Source: Candidatus Symbiopectobacterium sp. 'North America' (lineage in GTDB: Bacteria > Pseudomonadota > Gammaproteobacteria > Enterobacterales > Enterobacteriaceae). Taken from it: a DNA stretch of 64,000 nucleotides. Of this stretch, positions 2,668-4,522 are shown one piece after another. Location of the stretch: NCBI RefSeq assembly GCF_015762685.1, contig NZ_PEHF01000095.1:62001-126000 (forward strand), given 5' to 3'. Each line of letters starts with the position of its first letter. Position 1 is the first letter of the stretch. The translations under genes were made by a program, and so were the position numbers. The notes under the pieces were generated by a model, which saw nothing but the letters and a program-made list of their open reading frames with translations, was not told where the DNA came from and searched no databases.

Positions 2668-3246
2668 TTATTCAGTTGCCTGTGGTTGCTGCTTGGCTTT
2701 TTGAGACGACGGTGCGGCGGCCTTGCCGTTCTTTTCCTGTAGCTGCGAGGGCACCAGCACGGTGGTTACGCGCCCGCCTTTATCACCCACTGCCTCCATC
2801 TGTTGCTGTTTCACCAGATAGGTGATGCGATCGCCTTTCACGTTGCTATCCAGTTGTTCCAGATACGCGTTACCCGTCAGCGTGATCTTATCCTGCGCCA
2901 GTTCATAGCGCACTTTCTGTGCGCGGCCTTTCACCGGCTTGCCATTGTCTTGCATCTGGTAGAAGGTGACCGGATTACCAAAGGCTTCAATCACTTCCTG
3001 GCCCTGCGATCCCTGTGGGCGCGTGACCACGACTTTATCGGCCTTCACATCAATGGTGCCTTGTTTGACCGTAACATTGCCGGTAAAAGTGACGGTATTG
3101 CCCTGCATGTCCAATGACTGCTGCGCGGAATCAATGTGAATCGGCTGACTTGTGTCTCCTGTCACAGCAAGGTCAGGCAGGCTTGCTGCTAACAGGGCGC
3201 TGGCAATGGCCGCATGACGCCAGGCATTATTGGTGTTGAATTTCAT
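2668..3246 (-). CDS. lptA: Periplasmic LPS bridge protein LptA
   Basis: A 192-residue OstA-domain protein with an N-terminal signal peptide (hydrophobic ASALLAASL, likely cleavage just before VTGDTSQP). It polymerises into the periplasmic bridge between LptC and LptD. The conserved DSAQQSLDMQGNTVTFTGN segment is present. Its start lies inside the 3' end of lptC (20-nt overlap), so the two are likely translationally coupled. The C-terminus is a low-complexity K/Q/A-rich tail. Confidence 0.95.
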   Translation of the reverse strand: MKFNTNNAWRHAAIASALLAASLPDLAVTGDTSQPIHIDSAQQSLDMQGNTVTFTGNVTVKQGTIDVKADKVVVTRPQGSQGQEVIEAFGNPVTFYQMQDNGKPVKGRAQKVRYELAQDKITLTGNAYLEQLDSNVKGDRITYLVKQQQMEAVGDKGGRVTTVLVPSQLQEKNGKAAAPSSQKAKQQPQATE

Positions 3247-3793
3247 AAGAGGTTTTTACCTTTTCAATCAATTCGGCAGTTTTGTTACGCAAATTACCGC
3301 GCATTTTCATCCCATTCGAGAGGAAACTGGCTCCGTACAGTGTCACCTCATCATCGGAGGCGATGTCCTGTGTCACCAGGTTAACTTGCGCATTATCGAT
3401 TTTTATCTGCCGTAATTGTGAGTCATTGGTCAGACTGTTGACTTCCACATGCCCGTATAAGAACAACATTTTATCTTTGGTCAGCTTGGCGCGGTCAGCT
3501 TGTACCGACCAGGTGGCGATACCCTGTTCGTTAAACAGCGTAGCGACAGGCGCGGTAAACCAGGTGAGCTGTTCCGCGTTAAAATACTCCACTCTTTGTG
3601 CCACGAGTCGATAGTTCAGGCCACCCTGCGGGTTAAACACGCGCGTGGTGGTTTCATCGCTGGTGTAGGTCGGCACCGCATTGTCCTGGGTTTCCGTTTG
3701 TGGCGCGCTGTCCTGATCCGTCAGGTTCCAGTCAATCAGAATCAACACAATGAGCGCCAATAGCGCGGTTAGCCAACGCTTCGTCTTATTCAT
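3227..3793 (-). CDS. lptC: LPS export system protein LptC
   Basis: A 188-residue bitopic inner-membrane protein with one N-terminal transmembrane helix (about residues 7-23, LLALIVLILIDWNL) followed by the periplasmic beta-jellyroll that passes LPS from LptB2FG to LptA. The length fits E. coli (191). In E. coli kdsC and lptC overlap; here a 95-bp element separates them (see that entry), so lptC must now rely on a new upstream context for initiation. The start MNKTKRW sits directly on one copy of the TATGA duplication flanking the element. Confidence 0.95.
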   Translation of the reverse strand: MNKTKRWLTALLALIVLILIDWNLTDQDSAPQTETQDNAVPTYTSDETTTRVFNPQGGLNYRLVAQRVEYFNAEQLTWFTAPVATLFNEQGIATWSVQADRAKLTKDKMLFLYGHVEVNSLTNDSQLRQIKIDNAQVNLVTQDIASDDEVTLYGASFLSNGMKMRGNLRNKTAELIEKVKTSYEIQHQ

Positions 3794-3794
3794 A

Positions 3795-3889
3795 ATAAAA
3801 ACGTACTCATGGTCATCGCAAACTCATGTCGTAACAAACTTGTACCCCGACAAGCGGGCGGCGATAGCCCCCTTGCCGTGACGATACCT
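3795..3889. mobile_element. 95-bp MITE-like insertion between kdsC and lptC, with 5-bp target duplication
   Basis: On the minus strand the pentamer TATGA ends kdsC (plus 3890-3894) and recurs at the lptC start (plus 3790-3794). Removing the 95 bp between them plus one pentamer exactly restores the ATGA stop/start overlap expected for kdsC-lptC. The element is GC-rich and contains imperfect stems (for example CTTGT/ACAAG around ACCCCG). Weakly similar inverted ends are visible (GTATCGTCACGG against GTACTCATGG, read inward). It encodes no protein. The insertion interpretation is strongly supported by the duplication; the family name is unknown to me. Confidence 0.75.
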
Positions 3890-4456
3890 TCATATTGATA
3901 GCCCTTTGGCGTCGTCCAACTTACCCTGTGCCAGAAGGATAAGGTCGCACAGTTCGCGTACCGCACCGCGCCCACCGGCAATTCTGGTCACGTAGTCCGC
4001 CTTGGGCAGCAGCAGAGGGTGTGCATCTGCCACGGCGACGCTAAGGCCTATCTGTGCCATCACCGGCCAGTCAATCAAATCGTCACCAATATAGGCAACC
4101 TGATCGGCGTTAAGCGACAGTGTATCTAACAGTTCACGGAAGGCCAAAACCTTATCTGACTGTCCCTGATAAAGATGGGTGATACCCAGCGTGCGGCAGC
4201 GGTCTTCCACCAGCGGCGCAGAGCGCCCGGTAATGATGGCGACTTCAATGCCGGACGTTAGCAGACAGCGAATACCATAACCATCGCGTACGTTAAACAC
4301 CTTCAGTTCTTCCCCTTGATTGCCCATGTAGATAAGGCTGTCGGAGAGCACGCCGTCAACATCACAAATCAGCAATTTGATGGCTTGTGCCTTTTCCAAT
4401 ACCCGATCCGCGACGGGGCCGTAGCAGGTGGCGGTTTGCGCTTGGGGGTTATTCAT
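3890..4456 (-). CDS. kdsC: 3-deoxy-D-manno-octulosonate 8-phosphate phosphatase KdsC
   Basis: A 188-residue HAD-superfamily phosphatase that converts Kdo-8-phosphate to Kdo for LPS inner core synthesis. The nucleophile motif DVDGVLSD is near residue 31, the second HAD motif IITGRSAP is present, and the GDDLIDWPVM acid motif is intact. I chose the ATG at 4456, with AAGGA nine bases upstream and exactly the E. coli length, over a GTG two codons earlier. It follows kdsD on the same strand and ends at the 95-bp insertion. Confidence 0.95.
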   Translation of the reverse strand: MNNPQAQTATCYGPVADRVLEKAQAIKLLICDVDGVLSDSLIYMGNQGEELKVFNVRDGYGIRCLLTSGIEVAIITGRSAPLVEDRCRTLGITHLYQGQSDKVLAFRELLDTLSLNADQVAYIGDDLIDWPVMAQIGLSVAVADAHPLLLPKADYVTRIAGGRGAVRELCDLILLAQGKLDDAKGLSI

Positions 4457-4522
4457 AAACACATATCCTTGATGTCACCTTTCTTTCTTTAGGGAGCGCC
4501 AGAAAGACGATCCCGTTGACTG

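Follow-up and report, generated by a model that had tools for sequence, protein, structure and literature searches.

In Candidatus Symbiopectobacterium, an insect-associated bacterium, the kdsC stop codon and the lptC start codon no longer overlap in a shared ATGA, as they do in relatives, but are split by extra DNA. Here we describe this junction in a window of 64,000 nucleotides (the whole stretch of DNA that was analyzed). We tentatively propose that the extra DNA is an old spacer of tandem repeats that relays translational coupling from kdsC to lptC along a chain of mini-ORFs; we infer both the translation of the mini-ORFs and selection on the chain, and we hold this reading at somewhat less than even confidence. 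Independent initiation of lptC is a nearly equal rival.

The genes involved lie on the minus strand of the window in the order kdsD, kdsC, lptC, lptA, lptB, rpoN and hpf (all found as ORFs, the first five with Pfam matches); the names from kdsD to hpf, and the identities of rpoN and hpf altogether, are presumed from knowledge of the operon. The kdsC gene (3890–4462, minus strand) has a Pfam HAD hydrolase match, and we take it to encode KDO-8-phosphate phosphatase on the basis of family knowledge and operon context; it ends, on the minus strand, in TCAATATGA, with its stop TGA at 3892–3890. The lptC gene (3227–3793, minus strand) is intact, encoding 188 aa (Pfam LptC, 1.2e-53), and begins with TTATGAATAAG, its ATG being at 3793–3791, so that the stop of kdsC and the start of lptC are 96 nt apart. 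The encoded LptC is 96–98% identical to three records, two of them from Candidatus Symbiopectobacterium and one titled Serratia marcescens.

Outside the genus, TATGA is found directly at the lptC start in all 58 loci tested (two others, L097 and L098, were left out, their matches not beginning at residue 1), and in the relatives' sequences displayed this TATGA is the kdsC end as well. When up to three mismatches are allowed, 155 of the 291 non-genus genomes match a 26-base pattern for the uninterrupted junction (295 family genomes were sampled; the other 136 were counted neither way). A second set of 25 loci shares part of its members with the first; the uninterrupted junction is legible in 14 of them and 10 were not counted, and a locus from another family (L033) has a kdsC end without the uninterrupted junction in the portion displayed. 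The corresponding pattern for a spaced junction gave 11 matches in the 295 family genomes, namely two genus members and nine that read as ordinary overlaps, in which the second ATGAA must therefore sit inside lptC. The split of the kdsC–lptC overlap is real: as the original prediction had it, extra DNA divides the ATGA, and the overlap rebuilt without it is that of the relatives.

The spacer (3794–3889, minus strand) is present in all five Candidatus Symbiopectobacterium genomes examined, including the one that contains the window (the five are referred to as G000 to G004 where they need to be told apart). We read its 96 nt (6 × 16) as worn tandem units of 16–17 nt. The gaps between kdsC and lptC in the four genomes with an intact kdsC are 64, 80, 96 and 96 nt, all exact multiples of 16, a VNTR-like length variation in unit steps; compared with G000, G001 has lost 12 nt, the kdsC stop among them, and carries a further stretch of 16 nt. 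Periodicity is clearest in G004, where 55% of positions are identical at a lag of 17 (z 5.6). Self-alignment of the spacer beats all 200 shuffles in G001, G002 and G004, is marginal in G000 (five of 200 shuffles as good) and reveals no periodicity in G003 (175 of 200 shuffles as good), though lag 17 has a z of 3.4 there. TRF was run on three sources: it reported a 16 × 2.5 array in L039 (= G001), and none in the window or in L041 (= G004). The 16-nt length steps are thus observed, and we infer from them and from the repeats that the spacer originated as a tandem duplication at the overlap, now worn.

In the variable part of the spacer as many as 20 of 53 aligned sites differ (the maximum, between G000 and G004), compared with a divergence of 7% for lptC and 13% for kdsC on the flanks. 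As the spacer is genus-wide and its variable part has diverged so strongly, it is old on the genus scale, and it bears no signs of an active repeat; the original prediction of a recent insertion is not supported by this distribution and divergence. The record JADMXW010000011.1 (L041, i.e. G004), titled Serratia marcescens 1001295B, carries this genus-specific spacer, and its name looks wrong. We envisage a single origin at the kdsC–lptC ATGA overlap, no later than the common ancestor of the genus genomes examined, after which the spacer would have grown and shrunk through gain and loss of 16–17-nt tandem units, several of them containing ATGA or GTGA.

A chain scan of the window identified two mini-ORFs on the minus strand that link the two genes. 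Mini-ORF 1 (3813–3893; MKVSSRQGGYRRPLVGVQVCYDMSLR, then a stop) has no Pfam match and starts with an ATG that overlaps the kdsC stop TGA in a shared ATGA; mini-ORF 2 (3790–3816; MTMSTFLL, then a stop) runs from the ATGA of the mini-ORF 1 stop to the ATGA of the lptC start. Stop/start handoffs of this kind join kdsC to lptC in all four genomes with an intact kdsC. G000 and G002 each have two mini-ORFs in the chain and G003 has one; G004 has four, with an abutting TGA-ATG among its handoffs. Handoffs are called strict if they are ATGA, TRATG or abutting; ATG starts were used in the chain scan and the shuffles, and GTG starts were also allowed in the neutral simulations, the genomic stretches, the all-frame entry test and the neighbor-pair survey described below. 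A gain or loss of 16 nt shifts the reading frame by one position, with a corresponding change in how many handoffs there are. Codon differences in mini-ORF 1 between G000 and G002 are mostly non-synonymous, as judged by eye, a point against the relay.

The ribosome signals of the junction differ from those of the relatives. In most relatives AAAGGG or AAAGGA is found 8 nt before the lptC ATG, with a mean anti-Shine–Dalgarno duplex energy of −4.7 kcal/mol (n = 58). In the window this ancestral lptC Shine–Dalgarno (SD), AAAGGG at 3902–3907 on the minus strand (−4.4 kcal/mol), lies 8 nt before the start of mini-ORF 1 instead, and the same distance and energy are found in all four genomes with an intact kdsC. 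Before lptC, all five genus genomes have only −2.2 kcal/mol, where the median of the random background is −1.9. The SD has moved from lptC to mini-ORF 1, leaving lptC with a signal at background level only.

Under the proposed relay, ribosomes terminating at the end of kdsC would be aided by the old lptC SD and reinitiate on a mini-ORF at the ATGA overlap; they would end this mini-ORF at the next overlap, restart and arrive at the lptC start, which has no SD of its own. An unbroken chain of handoffs would matter, not the peptides, and the genus would retain kdsC–lptC coupling over a distance that alone is expected to weaken or abolish it. Coupling in three Escherichia coli gene pairs fell by 80–90% or was abolished at +38 nt, according to passages of PMC10666635, and coupling over longer gaps in some constructs is mentioned in excerpts of a review (PMC12548453). 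A further possibility, which we consider rather unlikely, is that the spacer is a frame-proof coupling array, its 16–17-nt units, several of them with an NTGA overlap, passing ribosomes from most or all frames to lptC. In G000 and G004, handoffs lead to lptC from whichever of the three frames is entered behind the kdsC stop; in G002 they do so from two of the three frames, and likewise in G003, where the third does not end before lptC.

Chains of this kind also arise by chance, at rates that depend on what is held fixed. In dinucleotide shuffles, strict chains were found in 3.4% (G000), 2.8% (G001), 5.5% (G002), 52% (G003) and 1.7% (G004) of cases; when the shared last 22 nt were fixed instead of 5, the values were 45, 28, 49, 70 and 14%, respectively, and under lax handoff rules chance chains amounted to 18–61%. 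Random genomic stretches of equal lengths have a chain in 12% of cases for G000, 12% for G002, 55% for G003 and 4% for G004. We also ran neutral simulations on a four-taxon tree, in which the starting sequence had a working chain and three indels or none were expected. With all sites free and indels, all four tips kept a chain in 2.3–7.9% of the runs at four times the flank rate and in 10.4–15.5% at twice the flank rate (3–30% and 19–52% without indels). With the last 31 nt fixed, the values were 15–22% and 32–40% with indels, and 13–42% and 39–62% without. The fourfold rate is near that observed for the spacer between G000 and G002 and between G000 and G004. Since chains survive often when the conserved block is fixed, inheritance of this block accounts for much of the pattern, and the support for selection on the chain beyond the block is modest.

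Among rough, ORF-based gene pairs on the same strand and 40–130 nt apart, a chain is found in one of nine in the window (kdsC–lptC itself) and in three of 39, kdsC–lptC included, in 400 kb of G002. The two other pairs in G002 (G002:C1, ∼221361–223225 and 300898–304265), spaced 46 and 85 nt apart, have one mini-ORF each with strict handoffs.

The nearly equal rival holds that the spacer is tolerated filler, that lptC initiates independently from the conserved U-rich 31 nt (e.g. by S1 binding) and that the chains are accidental; this has a substantial probability, if one clearly below even. These 31 nt (3790–3820, minus strand) include the ATGA of the lptC start and differ at one of 31 positions between G000 and G004, where the remainder of the spacer differs at 20 of 53 (Fisher p 0.0002; four of the 31 positions are the start ATGA itself), and it is this far stronger conservation, together with the U-rich GTACGTTTTTATT, that speaks for an independent start. 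The block also contains the final mini-ORF, and its conservation is compatible either with a needed final mini-ORF or with an independent start region. Neutral chains persist in 15–40% of the indel runs with the block fixed, and the degree of structure in the lptC start region is roughly that of relatives (−6.5 to −11.6 versus a mean of −10.6), both of which suit independent initiation. Against it, lptC lacks an SD (−2.2, near background), the chains are found in four of four intact genomes despite length steps that shift the frame, and the unpaired probability near the lptC start (0.29–0.49) does not clearly exceed the relatives' mean of 0.44.

The genome of Ca. S. endolongispinus (G001; loci L039 and L103) bears on the same question. 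Its kdsC is a pseudogene: 1 nt is deleted at one point, 5 nt are inserted at another and the frame between the two contains stops, and the 12-nt deletion has removed the original kdsC stop; its lptC is intact. A chain also runs from the extended kdsC end, but was left out of the four-of-four count because kdsC is a pseudogene. With kdsC broken and lptC retained, LptC is presumably made there without a relay from a full kdsC, which suggests that lptC can also start alone and favors an independent start. The original prediction that lptC initiation had changed from coupled to independent is thus doubtful for genomes with an intact kdsC, where the chains are found in four of four; it may hold for G001, with its broken kdsC, and for all of the genomes it stands as the rival just described.

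It is improbable that the spacer is the worn relic of a MITE- or MIRU-like mobile element that entered a DTGA overlap with target duplication. Two features resemble such an insertion: TATGA is found at both ends of the spacer (3890–3894 and 3790–3794, with 95 nt in between), and a start-codon position inside an operon is like that of the mycobacterial MIRUs, as these are described in parts of PMC12548453. The TATGA pair is present in four of the five genus genomes, the left copy being deleted in G001, yet the kdsC stop and the lptC start dictate four of its five bases. Since ATGA...ATGA results from any spacer that keeps this stop and this start, the T alone is informative and the pair, originally put forward as strong internal evidence for a 5-bp target duplication, proves little. 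The left copy of TATGA is nothing but the ancestral junction, which in G004 still reads ATGAGTA, as the lptC start usually does in relatives. As a caution, ATGA...ATGA should not be taken as a transposon target duplication.

Searches for further copies also argue against a mobile relic. The genome that contains the window and each of its four sisters have one spacer locus (in G003 as two adjacent pieces), and no second copy was found in these five genomes, the next matches being of 14–24 nt with an E of 0.12 or worse. There is no spacer-like sequence in the 196 other genomes of the order that were sampled and none in phages, and plasmids gave only fragments (E 3–9, in seven records). Matches to the repeat-unit pattern outside the kdsC–lptC locus are mostly sites with three mismatches and a few with two, in numbers near those of a reversed-pattern control, and Rfam has no match in 3600–4100 up to an E of 5. 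There is no inverted pair within 3790–3894 (arms of at least 8 nt), and the fold of the spacer is ordinary: it is equaled by 20 of 200 shuffles on the plus strand (z −1.37) and by 24 of 200 on the gene strand (z −1.32). One 14-nt piece of the spacer recurs exactly at four positions of G002 (G002:C1 527625, 583086, 594673 and 628943) within ∼100 kb, by chance or as an unrelated local repeat.

We accordingly rejected a MITE (no further copies in the five genus genomes, no terminal inverted repeats), a REP or BIME (no strong palindrome, and a fold unremarkable on both strands) and a foreign origin (neither phages nor the 196 genomes gave a match, and plasmids only the fragments above). What had been predicted, a MITE or REP-like element mobilized in trans, finds no counterpart in a single locus with no inverted arms and an ordinary fold. 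Judged by the refuting condition named with that prediction, the comparison with relatives is mixed: no second copy was found, the spacer is genus-wide in variable length, and it is absent outside the genus in the relatives tested. It is very improbable that the conserved 3' block acts in transcription, as a promoter for lptA and lptB: the single sigma-70-like site (TTGCGA-18-TATTAT, 3821–3792, gene strand; shuffle mean 0.3) overlaps the lptC start and matches only nine of 12 consensus positions, such matches being weak evidence, and its start site would presumably fall downstream of the lptC ATG, where it could not serve lptC.

The proposed relay has partial counterparts among known systems. 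According to excerpts of PMC12548453, MIRUs lie at start codons in operons, with an ORF coupled at −4 nt, and their insertion probably disturbs expression little. Like them, the spacer is short, intergenic and at a start codon within an operon, and an ORF joined at −4 nt (an ATGA-type overlap) to the gene is present, as an arrangement of sequence; unlike them, it was found in single copy, at one site in one genus of Enterobacterales and belongs to no sequence family, and it has one to four mini-ORFs and 16-nt length changes. No MIRU-like interspersed multi-copy family was found in the five genus genomes and the 196 others of the order. In integrons, a short non-functional ORF with an SD (ORF-11 of attI1) delivers ribosomes to a gene without one, as outlined in portions of PMC8876359. 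The spacer would share with ORF-11/ORF-17 the passing of ribosomes from an SD-bearing mini-ORF to a downstream gene lacking an SD, but it lies between two operon genes, would relay from the upstream gene and has no recombination site. A minigene is active in axe-txe (an extract of PMC8708949). Each proposed handoff is a standard overlap of the ATGA termination–reinitiation type (in the sections seen of PMC10666635); that mechanism usually has one handoff between real genes, whereas the spacer has a chain of mini-ORFs. With MITEs and REPs the spacer has in common its size, its intergenic position and the absence of a coding transposase, and it differs from them in lacking terminal inverted repeats and a strong palindrome, and in that no further copy was found. 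We found nothing on kdsC–lptC coupling or on this junction in open-licence papers, and a term search of the main text of a ribosome study of Symbiopectobacterium endolongispinus (PMC13345370) gave no mention of kdsC or lptC.

If the relay is true, it shows how evolution can insert ∼100 nt between two overlapping genes of an essential operon with their translation still coupled, and the genus provides a natural series (one, two and four mini-ORFs, and one genome with a dead upstream gene) for testing chained reinitiation in cells. If the array is in addition frame-proof, gain or loss of a unit would leave the operon coupled, so that an operon overlap can lengthen without loss of coupling, and the spacer would parallel the MIRU strategy at a single site and with a home-grown sequence.
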